DNA of 29,075 bases from a virus, in the IMG/VR virus record IMGVR_UViG_3300025736_000132, positions 1 to 29,075 of that record. One strand, written 5' to 3'. This document shows, piece after piece, positions 4,251 through 21,267 of the stretch. The translations under genes were made by a program, and so were the position numbers. How positions within the stretch are numbered: position 1 is the stretch's first letter; every line of letters starts with the position of its first letter. The notes under the pieces were generated by a model. The model did not search any database. It had not been told where the DNA came from and saw only the letters and a list, made by a program, of their open reading frames with translations.

Positions 4251-6175
4251 ACAAGTTCCTATCCGTACTTTTCGAGCTGGATGATTTGGTGGAGATCCGA
4301 TGCACTCCGCGAACTCGGGACTCAGCGGAACGCCCCAAACAGTTTTGGGCTCTGGCAGAGGATATTCCTGACACGCAAAAACGTTTAGAGACTCTAAATC
4401 AGCAGGGAAAGAACATCTTTGTGGGGGTTCTCCCCCGTACGCACCAAGGAGGAGGCACCGATGAGGACTGCCTCCAGGGGAGAGTGATTTGGGCTGATAT
4501 TGAGGAAATGACAGCAAAAACAGCTCTTCGGAGGCTCGAACGCCTGGGAATCCCCTCTCCCACCATGGCCCTGAACTCCGGTAACGGCGTCCACGCTTAC
4601 TGGAAGCTAGATCAACTTGCGTATCCTGAGGATATATCGATTTGTGTTTACTCGTTAGCCAATTACATTCTGAGCGATGCCAAAGTCTTCAATCCATCTC
4701 GGGTAATGCGCCTGCCCGGATACCGGAACACAAAATACACGGATTCAGTCAAAAACTGTGAAATTATCCACTTTGAGCCCGATCTAACGTATTCGCTCTC
4801 AGAGTTTGCCTCTAAATTTCCACGCACAGCCCTACCGGGCTTCGCTACGCAACGCAAACTGCCTAAGGACACTTCTACACCCCCTAATCGCTTAGAGGTG
4901 GTTAAAAGGGCTTTCATTTACCTAGAAGCCGTTCCCGCAGTGAGCGAAGGAGAGGGTCGAAATAACAAAGCCCATGAGCTTTCCAAAAGATTAAGGGATA
5001 AGGGCCTTGATGTATCTGAAACATACTCTACTCTACGAGATGGATGGAATAACCGATGTGGTCCCCCCATGGATCTCCAAGAACTGTACGCTTGTGTACA
5101 GAGCGGATACAAATACGCCAGGAAAGATGCCGGATGTGAGCCCTTTGAGTTTGCAGAGGAAGAAGAGGAACGGGCACCCCGTCAACGTGGGCGCAAACGT
5201 GCAGAACGTGTAGTCGGTGAAAAAGAAGAGAAAGTGTCCGAAAATAAGACATATACTGAGATTGCGTTAGAGCGCTTCCGGGAACAGGCGGAAGGCAAAC
5301 TGAACGTTGTCCCTCTCCCCTGGCGGGATTTGGCAAAAGACTGTCCAATTCTCTACCCTCGGAAGTGCGGGATCATCACAGGCAATCCTGGGGCGTGTAA
5401 AACATGGTTCGCTATGCACCTCTGCAAAACCGTGAAAGACGCGGGGCACAAGGTGAAGTATCTCCCCTTAGAGGATGACCTTGCCTATTATCTGCAGCGA
5501 GGTGCCGCGATCAGCTCAGGGTCCTGGGGACCCAGCAAGCGGGTGTCTCAAATGGATGTGGATAAACGAGGCCGATACCTTAAACGCATGGCTATGAAAT
5601 ACGGGGAGCATTTCGAGTACTGGGGCGACATCGTTGAAGAGAACCCTACCATCCGAGAAGATGGGGAAATTATGGCCATTGATTCCGAATGGATTTTAGA
5701 TTGGGCAGAAGAGGCATGCGATGACGGCGCTCGGCTGATTGTAATTGACTCCTTGGCCCAGATTGAGTTCTCTGGGCGCGAGGAATACAAGGACCAAGCC
5801 AAATTCTGGCGCCGGATGCTGGGGATCGCTAACAGGTCGGGAGCTACGATCCTGATGATCATCCACCTCAGTAAGACTTCTGGGGGAAATTATGGCTCCA
5901 TCTATTCTGTAGAAGCCTCCAAGAGGTTTGGTGATTTGGCATTCTCTATTGTGGGTCTGGAGAATATCAACGCCGAACCGACTCAGGTAATCGGAGATGA
6001 TGGGCTCTGTTCTATGGAAAAGATAAATTGTGTGGCTCATATCATGAAGTGCCGTGAGGGATCACTGACTCATGGACCTCAGGCGTCTTTTGTCTTTGGA
6101 AAAAACGGGCCTTCCTTTGATTGTTTTGGATTTTTAACAAAAGATGATAAAAATATGACGAAAACGAAGAAGTGA
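4244..6175 (+). CDS. Primase-polymerase / RecA-fold helicase fusion
   Basis: 643 residues. The N-terminal 200 residues match an archaeo-eukaryotic primase (prim-pol) domain: WADIE (catalytic acids at 85 and 87), NSGNGVHAYW (111-120) and RVMRLPGYRNTK (153-164). A charged linker (about 300-350) leads to a RepA/DnaB-like ATPase: Walker A GNPGACKT (380-387), Walker B LIVIDS (498-503, acid at 502) and ILMIIHLSK (536-544). The protein would synthesise primers and unwind DNA at the fork, like plasmid and phage primase-helicase fusions. The Walker A is odd: the residue before the catalytic Lys is Cys instead of Gly. A strong AGGAGGT lies 6 bp before the ATG, and the start overlaps the initiator gene by 7 bp. 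The end of the gene contains the first copy of the repeated bipartite motif. Confidence 0.88.
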   Translation: MLDKFLSVLFELDDLVEIRCTPRTRDSAERPKQFWALAEDIPDTQKRLETLNQQGKNIFVGVLPRTHQGGGTDEDCLQGRVIWADIEEMTAKTALRRLERLGIPSPTMALNSGNGVHAYWKLDQLAYPEDISICVYSLANYILSDAKVFNPSRVMRLPGYRNTKYTDSVKNCEIIHFEPDLTYSLSEFASKFPRTALPGFATQRKLPKDTSTPPNRLEVVKRAFIYLEAVPAVSEGEGRNNKAHELSKRLRDKGLDVSETYSTLRDGWNNRCGPPMDLQELYACVQSGYKYARKDAGCEPFEFAEEEEERAPRQRGRKRAERVVGEKEEKVSENKTYTEIALERFREQAEGKLNVVPLPWRDLAKDCPILYPRKCGIITGNPGACKTWFAMHLCKTVKDAGHKVKYLPLEDDLAYYLQRGAAISSGSWGPSKRVSQMDVDKRGRYLKRMAMKYGEHFEYWGDIVEENPTIREDGEIMAIDSEWILDWAEEACDDGARLIVIDSLAQIEFSGREEYKDQAKFWRRMLGIANRSGATILMIIHLSKTSGGNYGSIYSVEASKRFGDLAFSIVGLENINAEPTQVIGDDGLCSMEKINCVAHIMKCREGSLTHGPQASFVFGKNGPSFDCFGFLTKDDKNMTKTKK

Positions 6176-6186
6176 ATGACATAGTA
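6156..6186 (+). promoter_or_regulatory. Bipartite motif copy 1 (candidate phage promoter/operator)
   Basis: TGACGAAAA (6156-6164), 13 variable bases, GACATAGTA (6178-6186). The same two 9-mers with the same 13-base spacing occur at 12489 and 21237. It overlaps the stop codon of the primase-helicase gene and lies about 30 bp before the next gene. TATTAT follows directly at 6185-6190. The halves are 22 bp apart (two helical turns), as for -35/-10 elements or a dimeric binding site. Confidence 0.6.
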
Positions 6187-6214
6187 TTATACCCTTTAAT
6201 AAATGGAGAAGCAG

Positions 6215-6409
6215 ATGTTTTTTATTTTAGCGTCACACAATATCACAGAACCAAAAGAGTACGAATTAATAATCAGCGTAGAAAGTTTGAAGAAGGCGAA
6301 GAAAAAGATAGCTGAAGAGTGCGGTTTCGGAGAAGGGGCTGTGGAATATATTATCGCTAAACAGGTATGTGTGGCGAAGCCCGTTGCAGAGTTTACTGAG
6401 GAGAAGTAA
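6215..6409 (+). CDS. Small hypothetical protein
   Basis: 64 residues from the ATG at 6215, which has GGAG six bases upstream. An in-frame ATG at 6203 has no ribosome binding site and would add four residues. The protein starts with a hydrophobic strand (FFILASHN) and is rich in Lys/Glu; no family recognised. It is the first gene after the bipartite motif and begins a run of small, AT-rich accessory genes. The stop overlaps the next ATG by one base. Confidence 0.6.
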   Translation: MFFILASHNITEPKEYELIISVESLKKAKKKIAEECGFGEGAVEYIIAKQVCVAKPVAEFTEEK

Positions 6410-6630
6410 TGCCAAGGAAGCCCAAAAAGAAAAAAGACACATTTCGAGAAGGCTATGATATTCGATATAACCACCAACTTGAAGACGGGTACTGGGAATG
6501 CGGCTGTATTAAATCTGTCTATGTTAATGTCGAACATGGCGTAAACGAAAAGAATAATCACGAAGCGGCCAGACAGAAATTTCTGAAGCGTTGGCCGGAT
6601 GCTGAAGTTACCTGTGTGTTTTATCATTAG
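6409..6630 (+). CDS. Small hypothetical protein
   Basis: 73 residues, GAGGAG ribosome binding site, TAATG overlap with the gene before. Very basic N-terminus (RKPKKKKD), then Y.IRYNHQLEDGYWECGCIKSVYVNVEHGVNEKNNHEAARQKFLKRWPDAEVTCVFYH. The pattern of a strand, a CGC pair, then a helix and a final strand resembles small phage beta-alpha-beta proteins, but I cannot assign a family. Confidence 0.6.
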   Translation: MPRKPKKKKDTFREGYDIRYNHQLEDGYWECGCIKSVYVNVEHGVNEKNNHEAARQKFLKRWPDAEVTCVFYH

Positions 6631-6643
6631 AGGAAGGTAAGAG

Positions 6644-6826
6644 ATGGCAAAAGCTAAGAATGAAACAATGGAAACACACGAAGACGCTAAAGAGGCACTA
6701 GAGACATTAGAGAGAATGATCCAAGATAGATTACACGAAGTAAAGGGCAGACAGAGCGATATGCATGCTTTATTATATTACAGATCTTTGCTACGGACTA
6801 TTCACTATTACGTTGGGGATAATTAA
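6644..6826 (+). CDS. Small hypothetical protein
   Basis: 60 residues with an AGGAAGG-like ribosome binding site. Almost entirely predicted helical (KEALETLERMIQDRLHEVKGRQSDMHALLYYRSLLRTIHYYV), acidic first half. No family recognised. Its stop directly abuts the next ATG. Confidence 0.55.
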   Translation: MAKAKNETMETHEDAKEALETLERMIQDRLHEVKGRQSDMHALLYYRSLLRTIHYYVGDN

Positions 6827-7393
6827 ATGACCGACGAAATGCCAGACGGTTCCGGATTTAAAAATGGAACCAATATTGGGCACGTTAACGAGGATGAGGA
6901 TAAGATGACAAGCAAACAGAAGTATATTTATTGGGTGCCGGGAAACGAAAAGCCCGATGGCGTGCCAGAAGGTGTTGAGCTCTGGTGTGAGTGCGAATAT
7001 GAATGGGTAAATAGGAGTAACAATATTGATCCTCTCGGGTGCTTAGACACATACCGACTTGCAGTCACAGAAGCAGAATACAGAGCGCACCACGGCATGA
7101 AGGCTTGGGAGTCGGCTACAGGTAACGGTTGCCCTGAAGGGTATGAGGTGATTGATTTTCGGTATCCCGTCGGAAATGAGCTTTTCCTTTTAGCAGGAGG
7201 AGGAGGCATTGGCAATGGAGGCACATCAGCAGTGCATCCTATCCTTCGCAAGATCGAGCCGGAACCTTGTGAGCACAAGAATACCGAAACAACTATGTCA
7301 ATTCATAATTGCGCTGACCTGAGGCAAGTATGTAGAGACTGTGGAATGTTCCGCGTGTCTTTGTTTGGACCGTGGGAGAAAGCTGATGGATAA
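6827..7393 (+). CDS. Hypothetical protein with C-terminal Cys/His cluster
   Basis: 188 residues from the ATG directly after the previous stop. An internal ATG at 6905, preceded by GAGGA, would give 162 residues and starts just before the recognisable part (KYIYWVPGNEKPDGVPEGVELWCECEY..). The C-terminus holds CEHKN......HNCADLRQVCRDCG, a plausible zinc-binding cluster of the kind seen in many small phage proteins. Function unknown. It overlaps the small membrane protein gene at 7386 by 8 bp. Confidence 0.6.
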   Translation: MTDEMPDGSGFKNGTNIGHVNEDEDKMTSKQKYIYWVPGNEKPDGVPEGVELWCECEYEWVNRSNNIDPLGCLDTYRLAVTEAEYRAHHGMKAWESATGNGCPEGYEVIDFRYPVGNELFLLAGGGGIGNGGTSAVHPILRKIEPEPCEHKNTETTMSIHNCADLRQVCRDCGMFRVSLFGPWEKADG

Positions 7394-7517
7394 AATCATC
7401 GCTGTTGGATGCACTCTTTTAATTATGGGGATTATGTATTTGATTTATATGTCCCTTATTGAAGTTATCCAAATATTGATTGGGAATGTTGATGACCTTG
7501 AAGAGGATGACAAGTAA
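7386..7517 (+). CDS. Small single-span membrane protein
   Basis: 43 residues, with a GGGAG ribosome binding site at the end of the preceding gene. A short Met-Asp-Lys start is followed by one long hydrophobic segment (about residues 4-35: IIAVGCTLLIMGIMYLIYMS... then IEVIQILIG) and an acidic tail (DDLEEDDK). This is the pattern of a one-span inner-membrane protein with an acidic cytoplasmic tail. The stop overlaps the clamp gene in TAATG, supporting that it is translated. Role unknown; superinfection exclusion or host-membrane effects are possible but not shown. Confidence 0.6.
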   Translation: MDKIIAVGCTLLIMGIMYLIYMSLIEVIQILIGNVDDLEEDDK

Positions 7518-8512
7518 TGAACAGAACTGAAATGATCAAAATTATCCGGAGCATCATGCCGGGAACTGATTCTTCTGGAAGCTCGGTAGGGCAATCCGAA
7601 TGTATCGTCTTCAAGGATGGGAATGCCTACACCTTCAACGACATGGTTGCCATGCGCACGGCAGTGCCTTTCATTTTCGAAGGGGCAATTGAAGCGTCTA
7701 AGTTTTTATTGGCTCTGCAAAGTTTTGATAGCGATACAGTAAAAATTAAACAAAAGGATGACCATATCATTTGTCGAGGAGGGAAAAGGCAGACCACTCA
7801 TGCGATTAATTCAAACATTGAGCTTCCGATCAGCATTGTGGATCTGCCTCGGAAATGGCGTCCGGTGCCGGGGGAATTTACCAAGGCCCTTCAAACTGTA
7901 GCCCGGATTGCAGGCAGGGATGAAAATAAGTATACCTTAACTTGCGTGCATATTGCGAAGGACCGGATTGAGGCTACTGATAATATCCAGCTCATGCGAT
8001 GGCCCATGACAACCGGGCTCCGGATGAGCGCTTTGATTTCAGCCAGAACAGCACTTATGCTAACAAAGTATAATATTACGGACTCAGGCATCACTGACCA
8101 ATGGCTCCACTTTAAGGACGATACGGGACTTGTCTATTCGATTCGAACACATGAAGACACCTACCCTGATATTTCAGAGTTCCTTGAAGTGAATGGGACT
8201 CCAATCGTGTTCCCTCCGGACATCGGGGAATGCGCCTCTCGGGCTGCGGGCTTCTTAGAGTCCGCTAAAGATGATGGCGTAAAAGTCACTCTGGAAGAGG
8301 GGCGGATCTTTATATCTGGTGAAGGCAGTGCTGTCATTTATGAAGAACGTGCTCTGGTGGACTATGAAGGAGATCCCATTTCCTTCTTTGTCAACCCTGG
8401 AATCTGCCAGAAGCTTTCCAAGGAAGCGGAAGAGACGATTATCTCCGCTGACCGGATCAAAGTGACCACTCCGGATTACGAATACGTGGCCATGCTTCAG
8501 GCCGTTAAATAA
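7517..8512 (+). CDS. DNA sliding clamp (beta-clamp-like)
   Basis: 331 residues, slightly shorter than bacterial DnaN (about 366). Sequence similarity is weak but the landmarks fit: L.CVHI....IEATDNIQLMRW (about 134-157) corresponds to the DnaN pattern L.G......ATD..RL; HEDTYPDISEFL corresponds to the (F/Y)PD segment; ISFFVNPGICQKLSKEA corresponds to F..N...L.. in domain III; and the protein ends in a strand (YEYVAMLQAVK) like DnaN. It would encircle DNA and tether the phage polymerase. A clamp-loader ATPase is encoded at 13380 and polymerase and exonuclease follow directly, which supports the call. The first base overlaps the previous stop. Confidence 0.65.
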   Translation: MNRTEMIKIIRSIMPGTDSSGSSVGQSECIVFKDGNAYTFNDMVAMRTAVPFIFEGAIEASKFLLALQSFDSDTVKIKQKDDHIICRGGKRQTTHAINSNIELPISIVDLPRKWRPVPGEFTKALQTVARIAGRDENKYTLTCVHIAKDRIEATDNIQLMRWPMTTGLRMSALISARTALMLTKYNITDSGITDQWLHFKDDTGLVYSIRTHEDTYPDISEFLEVNGTPIVFPPDIGECASRAAGFLESAKDDGVKVTLEEGRIFISGEGSAVIYEERALVDYEGDPISFFVNPGICQKLSKEAEETIISADRIKVTTPDYEYVAMLQAVK

Positions 8513-9756
8513 TGGGATTCCTACCTGAGAGTAAACTACAATGCAAGAAAGCCCCCACGTCCACCAAGAAATGCGGCGGGGCCTGCAAGCTCAATCTAGG
8601 ATGCCAGCGGCCTTATCAGAAATCTTATGGCTCCGGCGCTCTGTCTGTGCTCTTCATCGGAAGCTCCCCTTCGAAAGTAGAAGATACCGATGGGGTTAAA
8701 ATGAAAGGCCCTGCTAGTTCGATGCTTAAACAACTCTCACGCAAAGCAGGAATAAGGATAGATGAATGCACTAAAATAAATGCCGTGCGCTGTTATGCTC
8801 CCGAAGATCTGACAGATAATGAAATTAATGCCTGCCGATTATTTGTGGATGAATCCATTAAAGAAATCAATCCAGAAGTTATCATTCCCATGGGGTCAGC
8901 GGCGATCAAATCTGTTCTGGCACCTGAGTGGGGCGCTAAGGTGGGGGGATTCCCTCGTTGGGTAGGGTTCCAAATCCCTTCCCGGCGGTTGAATGCTTGG
9001 ATCTGCCCGACATACCATCCACATTGGGTTCTTGAAAAAGACGATGAAGTATTAGTTGATATCTTACAGGAGCACCTGGAAGACGCTTCTTGTCTATTAG
9101 GCACCCGCCCGGATAATTCGTGGGAACCTTCTACTGAGGTTACAGTTCTCATGGAACCAGAAAAGATCATTGAACGACTGCAGTACTACAGAGAGACAGG
9201 AGGGACTATTGCTTTTGACTATGAGACAACGGGGCTTAAGCCCGACGCTTCTCACATGGAGATTGTATCCAACTCAGTCTGTTATAACGGCCTGGAAACC
9301 ATTGCATACCTTATGGATGATACTGAAGTCATAGACGAGACCAGAAAGCTGTTGGAAGACCCCTCCACTGGAAAGATAGCTACTAATATGAAATTTGAAC
9401 ATCGCTGGACCCAAGAGAAGATGGGGACCACCGTACAGAATTGGGTCTGGGATACAATGCTGGCTTCTCATGTCCAGGACTGTCGAAGAGAAGTTAATTC
9501 GGTAAAGTTTCAAGCTTACCTGCGGTACGGGATAGGGGATTACAATAGCCACATCCACAAATACCTGACCGCTAAGGGTTCCAATGAATGCAATAATATT
9601 CGGGAGCTCGATGTCGGAGACCTCCTGCTCTATAATGGCATGGATTCTATTTTAGAATATCATGTAGCCGTTGACCAAATGCGAGAATGCGGGATACCAT
9701 GGCAGGAAAGCCAATATCGTAGGAAAAAGAAGAAAAATAAAAGGAGTGAGCGATGA
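8512..9756 (+). CDS. Uracil-DNA glycosylase-like domain fused to a 3'-5' exonuclease
   Basis: 414 residues. Residues 1-195 resemble the Fe-S type (family 4-like) uracil-DNA glycosylase superfamily: Cys at 21, 25, 31 and 94 as candidate cluster ligands, VLFIGSSPSKVEDTDG (46-61), INAVRC (89-94) and the C-terminal PTYHP (166-170). Residues 225-390 form a DEDDy exonuclease as in DNA polymerase I: exo I FDYETTGL (235-242), exo II TNMKFEH (291-297) and exo III YNGMD (374-378). Exo II has Glu instead of the usual Asp. In SPO1-type polymerases these two domains sit ahead of the polymerase in one chain; here the chain ends after the exonuclease with a basic tail, and the polymerase is encoded two genes later. 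It would proofread and perhaps detect uracil in the template. The stop overlaps the next ATG (ATGA). Confidence 0.82.
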   Translation: MGFLPESKLQCKKAPTSTKKCGGACKLNLGCQRPYQKSYGSGALSVLFIGSSPSKVEDTDGVKMKGPASSMLKQLSRKAGIRIDECTKINAVRCYAPEDLTDNEINACRLFVDESIKEINPEVIIPMGSAAIKSVLAPEWGAKVGGFPRWVGFQIPSRRLNAWICPTYHPHWVLEKDDEVLVDILQEHLEDASCLLGTRPDNSWEPSTEVTVLMEPEKIIERLQYYRETGGTIAFDYETTGLKPDASHMEIVSNSVCYNGLETIAYLMDDTEVIDETRKLLEDPSTGKIATNMKFEHRWTQEKMGTTVQNWVWDTMLASHVQDCRREVNSVKFQAYLRYGIGDYNSHIHKYLTAKGSNECNNIRELDVGDLLLYNGMDSILEYHVAVDQMRECGIPWQESQYRRKKKKNKRSER

Positions 9757-9968
9757 GTGAAGAGCCTGTAATATATGAGTGCCCTAACTGTGGGGTACAA
9801 ATGTATAAGATAGCAATCGATAAGGCCAAGTACAATTATCTCTGCCCTAGGTGCCGGACTGAAAAGATATCCTACTTCACCAAAGTCATTGATGACGATA
9901 TCGCCATGCACGCCCGAAATCACCCCGAACCCTATATGACTAAAGCTGTCAGAGGAGATTTCGGATGA
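9753..9968 (+). CDS. Zinc-ribbon protein between exonuclease and polymerase genes
   Basis: 71 residues, AAGGAG ribosome binding site. CPNCG (10-14) and CPRC (32-35) form a classic zinc ribbon; the rest is charged. It is joined by ATGA overlaps to the UDG-exonuclease gene before it and the polymerase gene after it, so the three are likely translated together. Position suggests a bridging or DNA-contact subunit between the separated proofreading and polymerising chains; that is inference. It could also be an unrelated small regulator. Confidence 0.65.
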   Translation: MSEEPVIYECPNCGVQMYKIAIDKAKYNYLCPRCRTEKISYFTKVIDDDIAMHARNHPEPYMTKAVRGDFG

Positions 9969-12481
9969 ATCCTCGCACAGTTGAAGCCTACCAGATACTC
10001 CATGATGGTTCTGTGGCCCTTGCTGAAGTCGAGAGGGCAGGAATGCCTGTGGACCTAGAATATTGTAAGCGTGAGTCCCGGCGCACGCTCATGAGAGCGG
10101 AGAGGCTTAAAGAGAAGATCATAGACAGCGATACAGGCCAACTCTGGAAGCGAATTTACGGCCCCCGGCTAAATTTTAAGTCCCCCAACCAAATGCGGAA
10201 TATCTTTTTCAACAAGCTGAAGCTTGAACCAGTGGGGTTCACGGAGACAGGCAAGCCGTCACTGGACGCCCAGGCCCTTGACATAATGCAGACCCGATAT
10301 CACTTGCCCTTCGTGCAAGACTTTATCCGCATGAAAAAGCTCCTAAAGATTGAAGGGACCTACCTCCGGGCCTTTGAAAGAGAGTCAGTGAATGGGGTGG
10401 TTCATCCATTCTTTAACCTCCACACCGTGCGCAGTTATCGATCGTGCATTGCCGAGTACGAAGAGATTACTGTCGTGCCAGAAGGGACCAAGAGCCCCCA
10501 ACAGGTCCCCATCAAGGACGTGAAGGTCGGGGATATGGTTTACTGTATGGACGATGACCTGAATCCCCAGATCAAGAAGGTTCTCTGGCAAGGGAAGACG
10601 GGCGACCGGGAAGTAATCCGGGTGCATTATTACCGTAAGGGCAAGCGAGGGCACATAGACTGCACCCCAGAGCACAGGATTAGAATGATCGACGGAAGCT
10701 ATGTCGAAGCCCAAGACCTGATGAAGGGCGACCACTATAAGAAGAAAAGCCCTAAAGAGCGCAACAATCGTGTCCTGGCTTGCAGTCGCGCTCGTGACGA
10801 AGTCTTCTTCACAAACCACCTAAAACACGGAAGAGGCATGAAAGAGTATCGATTCCTGTACAAAAAGCTTATCGGGCCATTGAAAAAAAATGAAGTAATC
10901 CACCATAAAGACCATAACCACTGTAACAACGAGCTAGATAATCTGCAAAAGATGACCAAAAGCGAACATGCCTCTCATCATTGTCCTGAGACGATAATGA
11001 GCCCCACAAGCAGGGCAAACAATCTGATTGCAGTGAAAAAAGCGCATAAGGAAGGAAGGTATCCCCCTCCTACAGGAGAAGAACACGCCCATTATCTCGG
11101 GCTGTCCCGTCAAATGTGTCTGCGGATACTGGCGCGAGGCAGAGGTAAAATCAAAGCAGGGGCCGATGCAAACGGCACCGATTTTGACACACTCAAAAAG
11201 TACCTAAAAATACACAGCATTGATTGGCGTATCGTCAAACTGCGATACGACAAAAATGGGAAGTATATATCTCGCGGACGCTTGAAGAAGCTCCACCCAC
11301 TCGGGCGCAAAGCGGTATCTAATCTGCTCGGACACAATCATTATAAGTTGATTGCACTGTACGAGCACTATGGCATGGACACAAAGCGAAAGTGGGGGAA
11401 TGCCCAAGGTGCGTTTGCTCCTGGAAATCATGTTATCACAAGCGTGGAATGGATTAAGAAGACTGTCCCTGTCTACGATTTGGAAGTGGAGGACTGCCAT
11501 AATTTCTTTGTAAACGAGATTTTAGCACATAATTCGAGTAACGCGCCGAATTTTCAGCAATTACCTTTGCGGGACCCGGAGATGGGCAAAGTAGTTCGAG
11601 GCGCAATCAAGGCACCTCCGGGGTACTGCATCGTGGAGAATGACTATTCCGGCATGGAGGTAGGCATTGGCGCTTGCTCCCACAAAGATCGGAACATGGT
11701 CGAATACATCACAGATAAGTCAAAGGACATGCACCGGGACAGCGCCATGGATATCTTTAAGCTGTCTGAAGATCAGGTATCGAAAGAGATCAGACAGTCA
11801 ATTAAGAGCGGGTTTGTTTTTCCCCAGTTCTACGGTTCTTATTATGTGGAATGCGCTAAAAATATTTATGATTCTGTGGGGCAGCTTGGCCTAAAGTTAG
11901 CTGACGGAAGCTCTTTAGAGGCGCACATGGAACGAGTAGGCATCGGAGACCGGGGAGAGTGCGATCCCGAAGAAAAACCTATAACAGGCACTTTTGAATA
12001 CCACGTACAGCAGATGGAAAGAATATTGTGGGAAGAACGATTCCCTGTTTTCAATAATTGGCGCCACGAAATTTACGATAAGTATAAAGAGGATTTATTT
12101 TTTGACTCCCTCACAGGCTTCCGATACGAGGGCTATTTTCGACGTAATGAGGTGATTAACTTCGGCACCCAGGGATCGGCATTTCATTGTCTGCTTAAGG
12201 CTGTAATAATTCTTGTGGGGGAATTATCCCAGAGGAAGATGAAAACGCGGGTAATCGGGCAAATTCATGACTCCATTGTAGCCTTGGTCCATATGGATGA
12301 ACTTCAATTCTATTTGGATCTGGTTTACGATATCATGGCTAAGCGGGTGAAGAAAGAATGGAAATGGATTATCGTTCCCTTAGAAGTGGATGCCGATGTC
12401 ACCCCAGAGGCAGGAAGCTGGGCCCAAAAAGCCGCATGGACAAAAGATAACGGTATTTGGGGTCCTGCAAAGAAAAAATAA
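9965..12481 (+). CDS. Family A DNA polymerase (polymerase domain) containing an intein
   Basis: 838 residues as translated; about 475 after removal of an in-frame intein (residues 161-523). The mature protein has the family A polymerase motifs: the template-contact region HTVRSYRS|SSNAPNFQQLP at the intein junction, motif A VENDYSG (catalytic Asp 560), motif B R610-x3-K614 running into FVFPQFYG, and motif C QIHDS (His 768, Asp 769). There is no exonuclease domain; that activity is on the separate chain at 8512. The first 160 residues correspond to the thumb. It would be the replicative polymerase, working with the clamp at 7517 and loader at 13380. It starts in an ATGA overlap with the zinc-ribbon gene, and a regulatory motif follows the stop. 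Confidence 0.93.
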   Translation: MNPRTVEAYQILHDGSVALAEVERAGMPVDLEYCKRESRRTLMRAERLKEKIIDSDTGQLWKRIYGPRLNFKSPNQMRNIFFNKLKLEPVGFTETGKPSLDAQALDIMQTRYHLPFVQDFIRMKKLLKIEGTYLRAFERESVNGVVHPFFNLHTVRSYRSCIAEYEEITVVPEGTKSPQQVPIKDVKVGDMVYCMDDDLNPQIKKVLWQGKTGDREVIRVHYYRKGKRGHIDCTPEHRIRMIDGSYVEAQDLMKGDHYKKKSPKERNNRVLACSRARDEVFFTNHLKHGRGMKEYRFLYKKLIGPLKKNEVIHHKDHNHCNNELDNLQKMTKSEHASHHCPETIMSPTSRANNLIAVKKAHKEGRYPPPTGEEHAHYLGLSRQMCLRILARGRGKIKAGADANGTDFDTLKKYLKIHSIDWRIVKLRYDKNGKYISRGRLKKLHPLGRKAVSNLLGHNHYKLIALYEHYGMDTKRKWGNAQGAFAPGNHVITSVEWIKKTVPVYDLEVEDCHNFFVNEILAHNSSNAPNFQQLPLRDPEMGKVVRGAIKAPPGYCIVENDYSGMEVGIGACSHKDRNMVEYITDKSKDMHRDSAMDIFKLSEDQVSKEIRQSIKSGFVFPQFYGSYYVECAKNIYDSVGQLGLKLADGSSLEAHMERVGIGDRGECDPEEKPITGTFEYHVQQMERILWEERFPVFNNWRHEIYDKYKEDLFFDSLTGFRYEGYFRRNEVINFGTQGSAFHCLLKAVIILVGELSQRKMKTRVIGQIHDSIVALVHMDELQFYLDLVYDIMAKRVKKEWKWIIVPLEVDADVTPEAGSWAQKAAWTKDNGIWGPAKKK
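10445..11533 (+). mobile_element. Intein with HNH homing endonuclease inside the polymerase
   Basis: 363 residues (161-523 of the host ORF). It begins with Cys 161 and ends in His-Asn (522-523) followed by Ser 524, the residues needed for standard protein splicing. Splicing block B is seen as CTPEH (T234, H237); blocks F and G as VPVYDLEVEDCHNFFVNEILAHN in the last residues. Between them lies an HNH endonuclease core: HHKDHNHCNN (313-322) with LDNLQ and a distal His pair (about 339-340). A basic helical part (about 375-490) may be the DNA-recognition region. The insertion splits the conserved polymerase segment RS|SSNAPNFQQLP, a typical intein choice of a highly conserved active-site region. 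Homing activity is inferred; HNH residues look intact. Confidence 0.93.
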
Positions 12482-12488
12482 AGATAGA

Positions 12489-12519
12489 TGACGAAAATCA
12501 GAAGTGAAAAGACATAGTA
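12489..12519 (+). promoter_or_regulatory. Bipartite motif copy 2 (candidate phage promoter/operator)
   Basis: TGACGAAAA (12489-12497), 13 bases, GACATAGTA (12511-12519), directly after the polymerase stop codon. The following TATACT (12518-12523) occupies the same place as TATTAT in copy 1. The downstream 115 bp to the next ATG is an untranslated leader with a small hairpin AAGCC-N9-GGCTT (12525-12543) and a 14-bp palindrome AGAATTttAATTCT (12568-12581). Confidence 0.6.
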
Positions 12520-13167: not shown

Positions 13168-13477
13168 GTTTATCATACTGACCGGATGCGATGTAGAGAC
13201 TCCATTAGAATTAGGTGTCAGGCCAAATAATATAATTTGTATGCGTCGTTTAGATAATAAACTTAACTTTAAATCTAATTTTATTACCCGACTCACCATA
13301 GCTACAAAGTCGGATAATGATTATATGTACTGTAAAGAAACTCCCACGCAAATCTTAAAGAAAATCGAGGAGGCACAAAATGGTGGAACTTTACCGGGAA
13401 CATCGACCAACGAAATTCAGCCAAGTAGTAGGGCAGACTTCCACCGTAAAGCAACTCAAGAATTGTCTGAAGAATGA
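13160..13477 (+). CDS. Small phage protein, C-terminus overlaps the clamp-loader gene
   Basis: 105 residues. The first 73 (FIILTGCDVETPLELGVRPNNIICMRRL ... YMYCKETPTQILKKIEEAQ) follow a pattern common in small phage proteins: beta strands, then V/C-x-E-(T/S)-x-x-x-I as a short closing helix. The frame runs on for 32 more residues inside the start of the clamp-loader gene, giving an overlap of 98 bp, unusually long for this window. The tail has no recognisable pattern and is probably just the read-on to the next stop. Preceded by TTAAGGATG. Confidence 0.55.
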   Translation: MSEFIILTGCDVETPLELGVRPNNIICMRRLDNKLNFKSNFITRLTIATKSDNDYMYCKETPTQILKKIEEAQNGGTLPGTSTNEIQPSSRADFHRKATQELSEE

Positions 13478-14306
13478 CAGGCTTCCCCATGCCCTCTTGT
13501 TCACGGGAGGCTCGGGAGTCGGCAAAACTACTTTGGGGCGCATCATAGCTTCTGAGCTAGACTGTCACAAGGAAGAGTTCTTTGAGATCAACAGTGCTGA
13601 CTTCCGGGGGATCGAGATGATCAGGGAGATCCGCCAGAGCGTGAACTATGCCCCCATGCGCGGTTCTGTGAAGGTCTGGCTAATCGATGAATGTCATGCA
13701 CTCTCTCGCCAAGCCGAAGAGGCGATGCTCAAGCTCCTGGAAGATCCTCCGGAGCATGTCTACTTCATTCTCTGCACCACTGACCCTTCTAAGCTCCTGA
13801 AGACCACCCGGACCCGCTGCACGGAATTCGCTTTAAAAGAGTTCAGTAATAAAGCACTTGTATCATTTCTTGCGGGGTTCATGGGGGATCACCTGGAAGT
13901 AGACATCAGCAAGAAAACCTTGGAGGCCATCGCGGAGAAGTCGGCAGGGAGCCCCCGAAAAGCATTGGTAGCATTGGAAGGACTTATTGCACTGGACGAG
14001 GAGGACCAGAAGGCTTACGTTGAAAATCTGCAGGATGAAGAGACCAAAAGTATTGTGCTTTGTCGCGCTCTCCTCGCGGGGGCCAAGTGGAAGGAGGTCG
14101 CGGGGATCTTAAAGGAACTCAAAGATGACCCCGAGAGTATCCGCTACCATGTTCTGGCCTACGCAAGGACTGTCCTCCTTGGTGCGGGTGGGAGCGCCGA
14201 CAAAGCTTTTGTGGTAATTGACTGCTTCCAGGAAAATTTTTATGACTCAAAGCACGCGGGATTGGCCGCTGCCTGTTGGTCAGTTTTGAACGGAGATGAG
14301 AAATGA
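13380..14306 (+). CDS. Clamp-loader ATPase (DnaX/RFC-like AAA+)
   Basis: 308 residues. LYREHRPTKFSQVVGQ (4-19) is the characteristic DnaX/RFC opening. Walker A GGSGVGKT (43-50), Walker B LIDE (101-104), sensor 1 LCTTD, and the SRC-equivalent arginine finger region TRTRC (143-147) are all present, followed by the helical lid and collar region. The four-Cys zinc module of bacterial DnaX between Walker A and B is absent, as in RFC and T4 gp44. It would load the clamp encoded at 7517. No second loader subunit is obvious, although an unassigned gene follows directly. GAGGAGG lies 7 bp before the ATG. Confidence 0.9.
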   Translation: MVELYREHRPTKFSQVVGQTSTVKQLKNCLKNDRLPHALLFTGGSGVGKTTLGRIIASELDCHKEEFFEINSADFRGIEMIREIRQSVNYAPMRGSVKVWLIDECHALSRQAEEAMLKLLEDPPEHVYFILCTTDPSKLLKTTRTRCTEFALKEFSNKALVSFLAGFMGDHLEVDISKKTLEAIAEKSAGSPRKALVALEGLIALDEEDQKAYVENLQDEETKSIVLCRALLAGAKWKEVAGILKELKDDPESIRYHVLAYARTVLLGAGGSADKAFVVIDCFQENFYDSKHAGLAAACWSVLNGDEK

Positions 14307-14677
14307 AAAAGAAAAATGCAACACTGGTTGAAGTTTTTGACTGCCTAAATGCCGGAGGAAAGGCATGGGCAATAGAGGATACGGGGCCCCCTTTCCTGCG
14401 GGAAATTACCCTGGATAAAGGCGCCCTCTGGGACCCAAACAGTACACACGATTGGCGTGCTATTGGGATCACACGAGAAGATCTTTTCCGGACCGACTTC
14501 GTTATTGAGCCGAAAACGTCCCACGAAGATCAAATGAAGGACAGCCTGAAAACAGCCATCTCCCAAGCTGGTGGGGATCTTAGGTGGGACAAACTCAAGA
14601 ATGTGACCCTAGAGGATGCCCTGAAGGCCCTTGCCCCCAACAGTATTCGATTCGTGCATGTCAAGGAGGAAAAGTAA
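14303..14677 (+). CDS. Hypothetical protein (weak DUF2829/Tad2-like pattern)
   Basis: 124 residues, ATGA overlap with the clamp loader. The first 70 residues (VFDCLNAGGKAWAIED ... FLREITLDKGALW ... ITREDLFRTDFVIEP) resemble small phage proteins of the DUF2829 type: a helix ending in L..G, a strand, a turn, and a closing E-D-(L)-(F/L)-x-x-D-(W/F)-x-(V/I). DUF2829 includes the anti-Thoeris protein Tad2, but the resemblance here is by eye and weak. The C-terminal 50 residues form an added helical region. An alternative is a small clamp-loader accessory subunit, given its coupling to the loader gene. Confidence 0.5.
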   Translation: MKKKNATLVEVFDCLNAGGKAWAIEDTGPPFLREITLDKGALWDPNSTHDWRAIGITREDLFRTDFVIEPKTSHEDQMKDSLKTAISQAGGDLRWDKLKNVTLEDALKALAPNSIRFVHVKEEK

Positions 14678-14678
14678 T

Positions 14679-15155
14679 ATGGATCTAAAGGCAATAACAG
14701 AAATCGACCACAACGCATTGGATGTGGAGTGGATCGAACACCCCGGCATTTTCATGGAAGTGTCCATGGAGTTGGTCGAGGAAAAGAAGAAGCTAAAGAA
14801 GCTTCAAATGAGAGCGGATATGCGAGAAGCGGATGCCGCTAAAGAAATTAAGGAGGACCCAGAGAAGTTTGGCCTTAAGGCCAAGCCTACCATCCCTGAT
14901 GTAAAGGGAGCCGTGGACACCCATGAAGATGTTTTATCTTCCAGGAAGAAAATCATTGAGCAGGAATACGAAGTAGCAATGCTCTCCGCCTGTGTCGGTG
15001 CCCTCGATCACAAGAAGCGGGCTTTGGAGTCATTAGTCACCCTTCACGGACAACAATACTTCGCCAGCCCGAAAGAACCCCGGAACCTTGATACCGAATA
15101 TCTTGCAGAGGCCGGAAAACGAAGGGCACGCCAGGGCAGAAAAAGCAAGGAGTAG
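14679..15155 (+). CDS. Hypothetical helical/coiled-coil protein of the recombination module
   Basis: 158 residues from the ATG at 14679, which has AAGGAGG nine bases upstream. The frame is open further upstream but that part lies inside the previous gene. After a short N-terminus (ALDVEWIEHPGIFMEVSMELVEE) the protein is nearly all helix, with two long amphipathic stretches (residues about 25-60 and 88-130) and a basic C-terminal tail (RRARQGRKSK). The block LDHKKRALESLVTLHGQQYFASP is strongly patterned. Location between clamp loader and SSB/RecA, size and helical character would suit a recombination mediator of the UvsY type, but I see no firm sequence match. Confidence 0.6.
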   Translation: MDLKAITEIDHNALDVEWIEHPGIFMEVSMELVEEKKKLKKLQMRADMREADAAKEIKEDPEKFGLKAKPTIPDVKGAVDTHEDVLSSRKKIIEQEYEVAMLSACVGALDHKKRALESLVTLHGQQYFASPKEPRNLDTEYLAEAGKRRARQGRKSKE

Positions 15156-15157
15156 CT

Positions 15158-15307
15158 ATGGATAATCTAGCGAATGGCTTTTTATTCATTACTTGTTACT
15201 GTGGCATGCTAATTGCATTATACGCTATTATAAAGACGGTCATGTTGGCTATCTTGGGCGCAAAAAAAGAGTCTTTAGAAAGGACCAAGGAAAATGGCAA
15301 AAAGTAA
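15158..15307 (+). CDS. Small single-span membrane protein
   Basis: 49 residues, AAGGAG five bases before the ATG, starting 2 bp after the previous stop and overlapping the SSB start by 14 bp. A hydrophobic helix spans residues about 8-34 (FLFITCYCGMLIALYAIIKTVMLAILG), followed by a charged tail (KKESLERTKENGKK). The SSB ribosome binding site lies within it. Function unknown. Confidence 0.55.
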   Translation: MDNLANGFLFITCYCGMLIALYAIIKTVMLAILGAKKESLERTKENGKK

Positions 15308-16484
15308 ACGGAGAAGGTCAGCACGGGATAACGCAAAGCGCCGTGTTGAGGAACACAAGACAGGCGGGGGAGACTTCATCAAGCGGGCAAATGTGCCGGA
15401 GGGAACCAAGTTCATCAAGATTGATGACGAAGCTCCCCGTCGGTTCGACATTATCGGGTATGACGTGACAGCGGATCACAATCCCTTTGCAGATAAGGGC
15501 GACTTCCACTTTGAGCGGACTTACTACTGCCACAACATCCCGGACCCTATGAGCGACAAGGGGTACAGCGCCAAGATCCTCTGCCCCATGAAGAACTTCA
15601 ATAAGCCCTGCCCGATCTGTGAGTACATCGCCACTTTGGACCCCAGTGACGATAACGAGGCGAAGCTTGCCAAGGACATGAAGCTCAAGGAACGCCAGCT
15701 CTGGAACGTAATTGACGTTACCGATACCGAGAAGGGCGTCCAGATCTGGGACCAGAGCTTCTTCCTCTTCGGCCAGAAGTTGGACGCTGAGCTACAGAAC
15801 GCGGACGAAGAAGATGATTACGATCTTTTCGCTGATTGGGAAAACGGAAAAACACTCAAGATCGCCTTTGAGGAAAAGAAGATGGGGCCAAATAAGTTCT
15901 ATACGGCTTCCAGCATCAACTTTAAAGACCGTAAGACCGATTACGAAGATCCTGCCGCGATCGACCTTGATAACGCCTTGGTTCTCTACACTTACAATAC
16001 CATCAAATGCCTGCTGGAGGGCACTGAGGTATCACTGGAAGAGGACTCAATTGGGAGCAAACCAAAGGCCAAGAAGCCCTCGAAAAAGGCTGAAAAGAAG
16101 GAAGAGCCTGAGCCTGAGCCGGAAGACGATGCCCAGGATGCCGAAGACGAAGCAGAGGCCAAAGCCAAGGACGATAAGGAAGCTAAGGCGAGGATCAAGG
16201 CAAAGATCCGGGCAAAGGCCAAGAAGGAAGCCGCGGCTGAAGAAAAAGCCAAGGAAGAAGCCGAAGCCGCGGCTGAAGCCGAAGCCGAAGAAGATGCGGG
16301 GGGTGATGACGATGCTCCCGAGGGGTCCGAGGACGGCTCTTCCGATGGAGAGGCTTCCAAGGAGGGGGATAACCCCTGTCCATTTGGGCACACTTACGGC
16401 ACGGACAACGATAAAGAAGACGACTGCACGGATTGCGATGTCTGGGAACTTTGCTTTAAGGCACAAAAGGCGTTGCGAACTTGA
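15294..16484 (+). CDS. Single-stranded DNA-binding protein (gp32-like)
   Basis: 396 residues. The first 230 residues look like the OB-fold core of T4 gp32-like phage SSBs: a basic N-terminus, aromatic strands and a CPMKNFNKPCPIC cluster (Cys 97, 106, 109, with C79-H80 nearby) suited to zinc. Residues about 250-355 are extremely low complexity (Ala/Glu/Lys/Asp), then an acidic Gly/Ser stretch. The protein ends in a second Cys-rich motif, CPFGHTYGTDND....CTDCDVWELC (362-387). Phage SSBs usually use an acidic tail for partner binding; here that tail is long and capped by a possible zinc knuckle. It would coat template strands and recruit recombination proteins. The stop codon overlaps a sigma-70 promoter. 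Confidence 0.78.
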   Translation: MAKSKRRRSARDNAKRRVEEHKTGGGDFIKRANVPEGTKFIKIDDEAPRRFDIIGYDVTADHNPFADKGDFHFERTYYCHNIPDPMSDKGYSAKILCPMKNFNKPCPICEYIATLDPSDDNEAKLAKDMKLKERQLWNVIDVTDTEKGVQIWDQSFFLFGQKLDAELQNADEEDDYDLFADWENGKTLKIAFEEKKMGPNKFYTASSINFKDRKTDYEDPAAIDLDNALVLYTYNTIKCLLEGTEVSLEEDSIGSKPKAKKPSKKAEKKEEPEPEPEDDAQDAEDEAEAKAKDDKEAKARIKAKIRAKAKKEAAAEEKAKEEAEAAAEAEAEEDAGGDDDAPEGSEDGSSDGEASKEGDNPCPFGHTYGTDNDKEDDCTDCDVWELCFKAQKALRT

Positions 16485-16509
16485 CACAGTAAGTTCTTTC
16501 TGATATAAT
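16481..16509 (+). promoter_or_regulatory. Perfect consensus sigma-70/sigma-A promoter
   Basis: TTGACA (16481-16486), 17-bp spacer, TATAAT (16504-16509). It overlaps the SSB stop codon. Transcription would begin near 16516, inside the left arm of the hairpin at 16510-16536, and would express the HNH gene at 16561 and perhaps recA downstream. Confidence 0.88.
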
Positions 16510-16541
16510 CCCCCTACCTCTACATGGGGTAGGGGGATTTT
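16510..16541 (+). terminator. Hairpin terminator overlapping the promoter start site
   Basis: CCCCCTACC (16510-16518) pairs perfectly with GGTAGGGGG (16528-16536) over a 9-base loop, followed by ATTTT. The U tract is short. Readthrough transcripts from the SSB gene carry both arms and could terminate; transcripts starting at about 16516 would lack most of the left arm and should not. Confidence 0.7.
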
Positions 16542-16560
16542 GAGAGAATAGGAGAATGTG

Positions 16561-17268: not shown

Positions 17269-17281
17269 CGAAAGGAAAATA

Positions 17282-18668: not shown

Positions 18669-19236
18669 AGGCGCACCTTTTGAGCGGGAGCTCTCTAAAC
18701 AATTATCCTTGTGGTGGACAGCAGACGAAGACGAACCCAGTGATGCCGTGTTCTGGCGCACCTCTCAGTCCGGAGGCAGGGCCACCACCCGGGAGAAGTC
18801 CGGGAAGAAGACCACAGGGCAGTACGGGGACATCACCGCCACCGATCCCATAGGACAGCCCCTCATTGAGTTGGTGAGCATCGAGGCCAAGAACGGGTAC
18901 AATAACCGAGACATCATGCAGTTCCTTGACGCCAAGAAGATCCCTAAGGCTTCTCTGCTGGAGTTTATCAATCAAGCTTCTCGGGATGCACTGCGGGCAG
19001 AAGTTCCCTACTGGTGGATGATCCATAAGAGGGACCGCAAACAGCCGATGCTCTACACTACTCCTGGGTTTTTGTTAGACCTCACAAAGATCAACACAGG
19101 AATAGTATTTCTCAGTTCCGCCATTCTTACCGTTGGCGGGCGAATGATAGGAGCGGTCCCCTGGGAAGATTTCCTAAATATCGTCGAGGCCAAGGTAGTC
19201 AAAAGATTATGGAGAAAAACATGTTCAAAAAGCTGA
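18661..19236 (+). CDS. PD-(D/E)XK nuclease, Holliday-junction-resolvase-like
   Basis: 191 residues with a GTG start, chosen because AGGAG lies 6-7 bp upstream and the FERE motif follows directly. FERELS (E10), FWRTSQSGGRAT (31-42), QYGDITA (Asp 57) and SIEAKNGY (Glu 75, Lys 77) give the E...D...ExK order of a PD-(D/E)XK active site as in archaeal-type junction resolvases. The C-terminal half (KINTGIVFLSS...) is mixed. It would cut branched recombination intermediates made by the RecA/UvsX and Mre11-Rad50 proteins of this cluster. It overlaps the Rad50 N-half gene by 16 bp. Confidence 0.75.
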   Translation: MAKGAPFERELSKQLSLWWTADEDEPSDAVFWRTSQSGGRATTREKSGKKTTGQYGDITATDPIGQPLIELVSIEAKNGYNNRDIMQFLDAKKIPKASLLEFINQASRDALRAEVPYWWMIHKRDRKQPMLYTTPGFLLDLTKINTGIVFLSSAILTVGGRMIGAVPWEDFLNIVEAKVVKRLWRKTCSKS

Positions 19237-20138
19237 CCCTTAAAAACTTCCAGGCGCACGAAAATACTGTAATCGACTTCGCCCCAGGGGTGAACGTAAT
19301 CGTCGGTAGATCTGATCGAGGCAAGTCCAGTATTATTCGGGCACTGCAACTACTTTTCTTTAATCGTCCGGGAGGTAAAGCATACATTCGTCATGGAGCT
19401 AAGGAGTGCCGAGTAGAAGCAGAGATGGCTTCGGGGCAAATAGTTAAACGCTTGCGCACTAAGTCTAAGAATGAATATCAGGTAGGCGCCAACCCCGCAT
19501 TAAAAGCTCCTGGCCGAGACGTTCCGCCAGAAGTCATGGAAATCTGCCCTATGCAAGAGATCAACTTCCAAGGGCAGCACGATAGCCCATTCATGCTTGC
19601 GGAGACTGCGGGAGAGTGCGGCCGCATGCTCAATAAATGCGTAGATCTTACAATTATTGACCGCACGCTGAATGACTTGAACACGAAGAAGCGAAACGCT
19701 ACTGGAAAGTTGCAGCATTCCGTTGAAGCTATCTCCGAACAAAGAGAAGAAATTACCCGATATAAAACAGTTCCAGCCATGATTTTAGATTCAAAAAGCC
19801 TCGCCGTGTTACTGAGTAGTTGCGTGGATCTTGAAGAGAAGCTGACATCTCTTGCTACTGCTGTTGATTCGTTTGAAAGACTTACTGCAGATTTAAAGGC
19901 GCTTCCGAACCCCGCTGAAGGACTCGAAGCGCTCACTGCCTTAGAGACCACAGTTAGGCAGGAGGCTAAGGATAAAGCGCACTTAGCCGAGCTTCAGGAT
20001 TCTATTGAGCTCGTGGCGGAGACTGAAGGGGATTTACGAGATATGGCAGAAAGCGAGAAACACCTAAAAGCTGAACTGGACGAAATTATGGGAGAAACGT
20101 GCCCGCTCTGTGGGCAAGCAACAGGAGGTATAGAATGA
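19221..20138 (+). CDS. Rad50/SbcC N-terminal half, ending just after the zinc hook
   Basis: 305 residues from the ATG at 19221, which has GGAG at the ideal distance; an upstream ATG at 19209 has none. FKKLTLKNFQAHENTVIDF and Walker A GRSDRGKSS (29-37) are typical Rad50/SbcC. The Q-loop is INFQGQHDSPFML (about 107-119). Then comes a coiled coil, and the chain ends ETCPLCGQATGGIE: the zinc-hook CxxC (Cys 294 and 297) followed by eight residues and a stop. A full-length Rad50 would continue with a returning coil, signature motif and Walker B; these are in the separate gene at 21852. The halves would have to assemble as a complex to make an ATP site. The stop overlaps the Mre11 start by 4 bp (ATGA). 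Confidence 0.88.
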   Translation: MFKKLTLKNFQAHENTVIDFAPGVNVIVGRSDRGKSSIIRALQLLFFNRPGGKAYIRHGAKECRVEAEMASGQIVKRLRTKSKNEYQVGANPALKAPGRDVPPEVMEICPMQEINFQGQHDSPFMLAETAGECGRMLNKCVDLTIIDRTLNDLNTKKRNATGKLQHSVEAISEQREEITRYKTVPAMILDSKSLAVLLSSCVDLEEKLTSLATAVDSFERLTADLKALPNPAEGLEALTALETTVRQEAKDKAHLAELQDSIELVAETEGDLRDMAESEKHLKAELDEIMGETCPLCGQATGGIE

Positions 20139-21028
20139 GAAAACCTATCGCCGTAGCCTGTAGTGACATCCATCTCTCTGACACGGCCCCTGTGGCCCGT
20201 GGGGATGAACCCAACTGGCACCAGAAGCAAAAAGAAGCGCTAAACTTCATTGTGGATGCTTCCCTTGAACATCATGTGCCTTTGATTATGGCAGGAGATC
20301 TCTTCCATAAGGCCCGGGCTACTCCTGCTATGGAGATCCTTGCCATGGATTGCCTTCGCAGGACAAAGCTAATTATGATCCCCGGGCAGCACGACCTACC
20401 CAACCACTCGATCGATAATGTCGGACGCAGTTCCTATGGGGTCGTTTGCACCCATCTGACTATGCTCGACTGCTTTGCCCACTTTGGGGACGCCTTTGCC
20501 TGCACTTCTTATAGCTACGGGGAGGACAGGGGAAAGGCGTGCCCCACAGAAAACAAGAACCACATCGCCGTCATGCACGATCTAGTATGGCGTGGAAAAC
20601 CCCCATACCCTGGGGCGCCTGAAGGAGGCAACACACAGAACCTCGTAGACAGTATGCCGGGGTACGACTTCATTGTGGCCGGGGACAACCACAAGGGCTT
20701 TTCCCAAACTGTAGGGGATACCGTAATAGTAAACTGCGGAAGCATGATGCGTCGTTCCTCAGACCAAGAGAACTACAAGCCCAGGGCATACATTCTCTAC
20801 GATGACAAGACCGCCGAGCCTTTCTGCCTCCCCATCCAGAGCGATGTATTCTCTCGGGAGCATCGGGATGAGAAGAACGCCAAGGATGCCAGAGTGGAGG
20901 CATTTGTTAATCGCCTCCAGGATATCGAAGTGGAGCTCTGCTATGAGACCAATATGACTCGATTCTGCAAGGCCAATAAAGTAGATAAAGAAATCATAAT
21001 TATTTTACAGGAGGCAATGAATGTTTGA
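20135..21028 (+). CDS. Mre11/SbcD-like nuclease (metallophosphoesterase)
   Basis: 297 residues from the ATG at 20135 with AGGAGGT upstream. Metal-binding motifs in order: CSDIHLS (D11, H13), MAGDLFHKA (D55), GQHD (85-87, the GNHD motif with Gln for Asn), MHD (H148) and AGDNH (184-186, the GHxH position). Shorter than bacterial SbcD (about 400) because the capping/C-terminal region is small. It would be the nuclease partner of the split Rad50 encoded on both sides of it, processing DNA ends for recombination. ATGA overlap before, 8-bp overlap with the next gene. Confidence 0.87.
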   Translation: MRKPIAVACSDIHLSDTAPVARGDEPNWHQKQKEALNFIVDASLEHHVPLIMAGDLFHKARATPAMEILAMDCLRRTKLIMIPGQHDLPNHSIDNVGRSSYGVVCTHLTMLDCFAHFGDAFACTSYSYGEDRGKACPTENKNHIAVMHDLVWRGKPPYPGAPEGGNTQNLVDSMPGYDFIVAGDNHKGFSQTVGDTVIVNCGSMMRRSSDQENYKPRAYILYDDKTAEPFCLPIQSDVFSREHRDEKNAKDARVEAFVNRLQDIEVELCYETNMTRFCKANKVDKEIIIILQEAMNV

Positions 21029-21236
21029 TGAGCCTGAAATACGAAGAGGACCAAAACGAAAACCACGGGCAGAGATCCGAAGTAAGTTTGTACAGGTCAC
21101 ATTAACGCCTTGGGAAAAACAACAGCTTGATGATATGGCTTCGGTTCAAGGAGTGACTGCAAGTAGTATTATTCGAAATCTTTTTACCCAATTATTAAGA
21201 GAAAGAGGCATCGAATTACCCCAATCTGAATTTTAA
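21021..21236 (+). CDS. Ribbon-helix-helix DNA-binding protein
   Basis: 71 residues, CAGGAGG before the ATG. After a basic N-terminus (RRGPKRKPRAE) comes KFVQVTLTPWEKQQLDDMASVQGVTASSIIRNLFTQLLRERG, which fits the ribbon-helix-helix (Arc/CopG) pattern: a short beta strand, a helix, a Gly turn, and a second helix starting with S/T. Such dimers act as transcriptional repressors. It is followed immediately by the third bipartite motif, which could be its operator. Confidence 0.7.
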   Translation: MFDEPEIRRGPKRKPRAEIRSKFVQVTLTPWEKQQLDDMASVQGVTASSIIRNLFTQLLRERGIELPQSEF

Positions 21237-21267
21237 TGACGAAAATCTAACTTCAAATGACATAGTA
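21237..21267 (+). promoter_or_regulatory. Bipartite motif copy 3 (candidate phage promoter/operator)
   Basis: TGACGAAAA (21237-21245), 13 bases, GACATAGTA (21259-21267), immediately after the TAA of the ribbon-helix-helix gene and 12 bp before the next ATG. The downstream TATTAT/TATACT seen in copies 1 and 2 is not present here (AAAGGG instead, which serves as part of the ribosome binding site). The start site would therefore be very close to the start codon if it is a promoter. Confidence 0.55.

Follow-up and report, generated by a model that had tools for sequence, protein, structure and literature searches.

We analysed a bipartite DNA element, ATGACGAAAA-N13-GACATAGTA, that recurs between blocks of genes in a 29,075-nucleotide stretch of viral DNA (positions 1 to 29,075 of the IMG/VR record IMGVR_UViG_3300025736_000132; hereafter the window), and we interpret it as a phage-specific core promoter element that occurs at least four times, a reading to which we assign a probability of about 0.68. 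Three exact matches are found on the + strand of the window, at 6156-6186, 12489-12519 and 21237-21267 (copies 1, 2 and 3), and a fourth (copy 4) is found on another contig that probably belongs to the same phage. The promoter interpretation is based on the co-orientation of the four copies at operon starts, where they lie in gaps between genes, on their rigid spacing and A/T-rich upstream DNA, and on the copy in the putative structural arm. Each copy sits at the gap that opens the next gene block, which is where a promoter for that block would be needed.

Sequence, spacing and significance of the motif

The original prediction had placed exact copies of the motif at 6156, 12489 and 21237, at or within a few bases of stop codons, and had noted the hexamers TATTAT and TATACT directly downstream of copies 1 and 2; all of these observations hold. 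Shuffled sequences contain 0.02 matches on average (no shuffle has three), the closest other sites in the window differ from the motif at five of 18 positions, and no further site for TGACGAAAA-N13-GACATAGTA is found in the window when up to three mismatches are allowed. The spacer of copy 1 spans a stop codon (6173-6175), copy 2 begins 7 nt past one (12479-12481) and copy 3 begins directly past one (21234-21236). We also searched the window de novo for any pair of 9-mers separated by a gap of 0-30 and occurring at least three times: the motif is the sole dispersed pair of this kind, all others being tandem repeats within positions 1-284, and none of 100 dinucleotide shuffles has any such recurrent pair. 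The copies are unchanged in contigs 3300025698_000144 and 3300005935_000292, which were assembled separately and are 99.9% identical to the window, so they are not an assembly artefact.

All 18 positions and the spacer length of 13 are conserved in four out of four copies (three from the window and one from contig 3300025698_000092), and the base directly 5' of TGACGAAAA is A in every copy. The spacers themselves (CGAAGAAGTGAAT, TCAGAAGTGAAAA, TCTAACTTCAAAT and TGGGAGGTGAGGG) differ in sequence; a fixed length combined with a free sequence suggests recognition by a protein on double-stranded DNA. The centres of the two blocks are 22 bp apart, i.e. about two helical turns, a separation close to that of -35 and -10 elements. 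All four copies have the same orientation as the transcription of the genes that follow them, and the distances from the motif end to the ATG are 28, 119, 12 and 52 nt for copies 1 to 4. The 25 bp upstream of the copies are rich in A/T (88%, 72%, 68% and 76% for copies 1 to 4): the mean of 0.76, compared with backgrounds of 0.52 for the whole genome and 0.59 for the ends of genes, was reached by none of the random sets of four sites (50,000 draws from either background). The asymmetry of the motif, its fixed orientation relative to transcription and the A/T-rich upstream DNA are more readily explained by RNA polymerase than by a symmetric repressor. Hexamers resembling TATAAT (TATTAT, TATACT and TATATT) follow copies 1, 2 and 4 and overlap the last two bases of the motif; copy 3 is followed by AAGGG, and no TATAAT-like hexamer is seen downstream of it. 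There is no dyad or direct-repeat symmetry between the two blocks: the best inverted match is 3 and the best direct match is 4, values that shuffled blocks equal in 89% and 86% of trials, respectively.

A fourth copy on a putative structural contig

An exact-pattern scan of all IMG/VR contigs found the motif only in the contigs of this virus and in IMGVR_UViG_3300025698_000092 (L031; 18,009 bases), where copy 4 occupies positions 466-496, upstream of the first + strand gene, and is followed by TATTAAGG and then a short hairpin. This contig encodes a large terminase (phrog_2, E=1e-36); it shares its source metagenome with contig 3300025698_000144 and has no overlap with the window. In tetranucleotide composition it correlates with the window at 0.90, as closely as one half of the window does with the other (0.89); for viral contigs that are unrelated the values are 0.21-0.61. 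Given this shared signature, the contig is probably part of the same phage and would represent its structural arm.

Repeats are found at the left ends of both contigs. Upstream of the sigma-like gene of the window (36-98 and 124-284) there are about seven copies of a 9-bp tandem repeat, GACATTCGG, together with 34-43-bp repeats containing GAAATTTTGAAGTTTTTACAGTACAGTACC, and several GGGACA repeats are present at the left end of the structural contig; the two contigs may therefore meet at a divergent control region. The structural contig also carries a second strong sigma-70-type promoter of the phage (TTGACA-N18-TATAAG, at 4330-4359), in the gap before a putative small terminase gene.

Proposed mechanism and candidate readers

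The features of the motif fit a phage promoter of the -35/-10 type, and do not fit a palindromic operator of a ribbon-helix-helix (RHH) protein, an RNA element or a sigma-70 promoter. In the model that we propose, the -35-type block would be TGACGAAAA and the -10-type block GACATAGTA, held about two helical turns apart by the 13-bp spacer as in sigma-dependent promoters, and RNA synthesis would start some 6-9 bp past GACATAGTA and run into the downstream gene block; for copy 4 the predicted start is at 502-505 of the structural contig. A phage factor, most likely the product of the sigma-like gene at 297, would redirect the host RNA polymerase to the motif sites, and the early block would in this way activate the structural arm as well as three blocks of replication/recombination genes. 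That the motif is active as a promoter, where RNA starts, which protein reads it and that the structural contig belongs to the same genome are all inferred from these sequence features.

The sigma-like protein, the natural candidate for a reader of the motif, matches the Pfam family Sigma70_r2 (E=1.3e-4; 22.2 bits, compared with a gathering score of 24) and, with its region 2 part only, TIGR02937 (E=2e-4); its single-sequence AlphaFold model (pLDDT 44) is uninformative. The prediction of a phage-specific promoter read by this protein is supported in part: the promoter is the best-supported explanation of the motif, and the assignment of the reader is plausible and unproven. A more specific version, which we regard as doubtful, is that the protein is a minimal sigma factor, with region 2 retained and region 4 replaced by a new C-terminal domain, and that it reads a two-block promoter with 18 invariant positions.

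The other reader that had been suggested, the RHH protein encoded at 21021, is similar to the BrnA-type antitoxins of NCBIfam (E=1.6e-4), in addition to its Arc-like match (Table 1), and its structure model has two confident helices of RHH length (30-43 and 47-61). Its gene adjoins copy 3. The idea that the motif is its operator is not supported: operators of RHH proteins (Arc, NikR, MetJ) are expected to have palindromic or tandem half sites, and neither is seen in the motif blocks; moreover, none of the copies precedes the RHH gene itself or overlaps a sigma-70 promoter.

Several observations speak against the promoter interpretation or against the proposed reader. Only four copies were found, and the same element precedes replication and structural genes, unlike the usual separation of their timing. 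The predicted leader of copy 3 would begin just 4-7 nt before the ATG, excluding the gene's own ribosome-binding site. As for the sigma-like protein, its scores are below the curated cut-offs, no region 4 (the region that binds -35 elements) was detected by family profiles, and no relatives were found in IMG/VR, phage records, solved structures (PDB) or the related loci that we fetched.

Distribution in related phages and sequence collections

Using UvsX as a query we collected 70 loci, of which two are contigs of this virus and the rest are from other phages (36-61% identity). Many of these loci share the genes for the clamp, UDG/exonuclease, clamp loader, SSB, UvsX, SbcC-N, SbcD and SbcC-C. 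The motif at spacing 13, with up to three mismatches, is absent from all 68 loci of other phages (incomplete stretches, 0.75 Mb in all), in which only chance-like matches at other spacings are seen. The original prediction had proposed looking for the motif in related phages; in the collections it turned up in no virus other than this one, on its several contigs. No homologue of the sigma-like gene was found in the fetched (incomplete) stretches either, a joint absence that agrees, weakly, with the motif and this gene going together. Scans with the primase/helicase and the clamp loader returned only other contigs of the same virus.

In bacterial genomes (257 Gb) there are 10 exact matches in scattered taxa, close to the ∼7.5 expected by chance (2 x 257e9 / 4^18). 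A relaxed 16-position form of the motif has 21 further matches in IMG/VR, all of them single and nearly all within long reading frames. The UvsX relatives have no comparable private dyads of their own except for unrelated intergenic arrays in one phage (L058, 1532-3500), with at least five units of the form AAATACTC-N10-GTGTTACCCA-variable-TTAGTTTTTACTAAAA.

Alternative explanations

The motif is unlike a promoter of the host sigma-70 type (TTGACA, 16-18 bp, TATAAT), as none of its copies was listed by a promoter scan, its best -10-like hexamer is CATAGT (4/6, 19 bp from ATGACG) and, by inspection, no good -10 element lies 16-18 bp downstream of GACATAGTA taken as a -35 element. The TTGACA-N17-TATAAT sequence at 16481, which had been cited as having a layout unlike that of the motif, is indeed a perfect one. 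Host sigma-70 could still act with the help of a phage activator bound to the bipartite element, using the overlapping TATTAT, TATACT or TATATT and no -35 element, much as T4 middle promoters combine a phage box with a host -10 element (PMC2988021). We consider this unlikely: three of the four copies have, at an identical offset, a hexamer that matches TATAAT at five of six positions, but the corresponding hexamer of copy 3 (TAAAGG) matches at only three, the distance from block 1 to the hexamer is 20 bp rather than the 12 +/- 1 bp that separates the box from a good -10 element in MotA-dependent promoters (for which reason we rejected a T4-type middle promoter as such), and no activator candidate was recognised beyond the sigma-like and RHH proteins. 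Less probable still is a role as operators or stoperators, of the sort known from SP-beta and the cluster A mycobacteriophages; the copies would then bind either the Arc-like protein encoded at 21021 or an asymmetric repressor with two domains, which in the lysogenic state would stop transcription from initiating or elongating. Stoperators are characterised by asymmetry, by an orientation that follows transcription and by a location in short intergenic spaces (PMC9283540), and the motif has these properties; SP-beta has repressor elements dispersed over promoter regions (PMC10516654), and the Arc-like gene is a neighbour of copy 3. Yet the copies are found neither over the sigma-70 promoter at 16481 nor in the control region (1-296), none precedes the RHH gene, dyad and repeat symmetry are lacking in the motif, there are four copies instead of more than 20, and no two-domain repressor was recognised among the open reading frames scanned (part of those of an incomplete genome). 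The 18 conserved positions and the A/T-rich upstream DNA fit initiation better.

Two further explanations appear very improbable to us. If the + strand were transcribed by read-through, the motif could act in the RNA, as a signal for processing, anti-termination or translation; every copy does lie at a gene junction of an otherwise continuous train of genes, and short hairpins follow copies 2 and 4, but the rigid 13-nt spacing with an unconserved spacer, the lack of a stem within the motif and the tenfold variation of the distance to the start codon argue against such a role, which would also leave the A/T-rich upstream DNA unexplained. Alternatively, the copies at the borders of gene blocks could be linkers, i.e. 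short shared sequences that promote the exchange of modules between phages. This has the least to recommend it: the motif is missing in the related phages that have the same replication module, so far from all exchange partners examined, and two 9-mers with a variable spacer sequence are a poor substrate for homologous exchange.

Comparison with known phage systems

The closest documented system, judged by its working principle (a bipartite promoter and a phage sigma factor), is that of Salmonella phage 7-11, whose own sigma factor SaPh711_gp47 reads GTAAtg-(16)-aCTA at eight late promoters, with transcription starting 6-9 bp from the element (PMC8948821). Both phages have two blocks at a fixed spacing, several copies before gene blocks and a phage-encoded sigma-like protein, and the motif trimmed to six-base blocks reads TGACGA-16-GACATA. 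The block sequences differ, however, the sigma-like protein at 297 is short and has no recognisable region 4, and the element also occurs before replication genes. In the related phage phiEco32, middle and late promoters are read by the sigma factor gp36, which has no region 4, and consist of one block, tAATGTAtA (PMC8948821); the likeness lies in a phage sigma-like gene, in a highly conserved element before gene blocks and in the lack of region 4 in both proteins, and the difference in the two equally conserved blocks seen here.

T4 middle promoters (MotA box plus sigma-70 -10 element, PMC2988021) resemble the motif in that a 9-bp box specific to the phage is followed by a possible -10 element, but the spacing and the second block differ, copy 3 has no -10 element, and no homologue of MotA or AsiA was recognised in this phage. 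The stoperators of cluster A mycobacteriophages (PMC9283540) and the SPBRE sequences of SP-beta (PMC10516654) are repressor sites of 13-15 bp; they are likewise dispersed in gene gaps, and the stoperators are asymmetric and co-oriented, but neither such a repressor nor an overlap with a sigma-70 promoter is seen here. Start-associated sequences (SAS) of cluster K mycobacteriophages lie directly at translation starts, and their extended forms (ESAS) consist of inverted repeats with a variable spacer (PMC3203893). Like them, the motif is repeated, mostly in the same orientation, before some of the genes; it differs in its fixed spacer, the lack of an inverted repeat and its variable distance to the ATG (12-119 nt), and we rejected an assignment to SAS/ESAS, which have a fixed position at translation starts.

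Gene blocks and other features of the window

Positions 297-23990 of the window form a single train of + strand genes that is 97.8% coding (according to our gene list, in which the starts of three small genes are approximate). Only five gaps within this arm are 15 nt or longer: three contain the motif, one a sigma-70 promoter and one a terminator-like hairpin (Table 1) that was not listed by a terminator scan with a loop limit of 8.

Table 1. Positions of motif copies, gaps, gene blocks and regulatory features in the window
Feature	Position	Strand	Remarks
Sigma-like protein	297..749	+	First gene of first block; candidate reader of the motif
Gap	3016-3146		Ends first block; contains terminator-like hairpin
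Terminator-like hairpin	~3092..3130	+	GCCTCCC...GGGGAGGC, then T-rich TTTTTTATT; read by eye
Motif copy 1	6156..6186	+	Candidate promoter for block 6215-12481; predicted 5' end ~6192-6195
Gap	6176-6214		Motif copy 1
Gene block	6215-12481		Small genes, sliding clamp, UDG/exonuclease, DNA polymerase
Gap	12482-12638		Motif copy 2
Motif copy 2	12489..12519	+	Candidate promoter for block 12639-16484; predicted 5' end ~12525-12528; predicted leader ~110 nt
Gene block	12639-16484		DUF3310, clamp loader, SSB
Sigma-70 promoter TTGACA-N17-TATAAT	16481..16509	+	12/12 matches; hairpin downstream, -20 kcal/mol
Gap	16485-16560		Preceded by perfect TTGACA-N17-TATAAT at 16481; strong hairpin at expected transcript start
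Arc-like RHH protein	21021..21236	+	Rival candidate reader; phrog_3431 Arc-like repressor, E=4e-6
Gap	21237-21279		Motif copy 3
Motif copy 3	21237..21267	+	Candidate promoter for block 21280-23990; predicted 5' end ~21273-21276
Gene block	21280-23990		Thioredoxin-like, SbcC C-half, RtcB

The region 16461-16550 holds the only perfect sigma-70 promoter of the window, and the 10-bp GC-rich hairpin that follows it begins at about +1. A degenerate copy of the motif at 16461 (13 of 18 positions, five mismatches) overlaps the -35 element of this promoter and is not significant alone.

An SbcC/Rad50-like ATPase is split into two genes: the N-half (19209-20138) ends at a zinc-hook-like CPLCGQ, and the C-half (21852-22436) carries Walker B. 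Between them lie SbcD, the RHH gene, motif copy 3 and thioredoxin-like genes, and homologues of both halves are found in many UvsX-related phages. Judged from its sequence, the DNA polymerase gene (9965-12481) appears to be interrupted by an intein that includes an HNH-type region (∼10450-11530), and most of the phage polymerase homologues align only to the C-terminal part beyond this putative intein. An RtcB-like RNA ligase gene (22445-23632), identified by reading the sequence, belongs to the last block of the + strand. Within a replication-initiator-like gene (3147-4250), positions 3463-3536 hold an iteron-like array in which a 24-bp unit, CTGGATGGTGCGAAACCCCACCAT, is repeated three times in tandem.

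Implications for phage gene regulation

The sequence of the motif and the phage are probably new, and the kind of switch is one known from other phages. If the promoter interpretation is correct, the transcription plan of an uncultured phage would have been read from its sequence alone, with four transcription starts placed to within a few bases; a divergent sigma-like protein would be paired with its probable target, adding, beside phage 7-11, a further example in which a phage sigma factor recognises a two-part promoter. Should the sigma-like protein turn out to be a minimal sigma factor, it would be the first case of such a factor with a new mode of recognising the -35 block.

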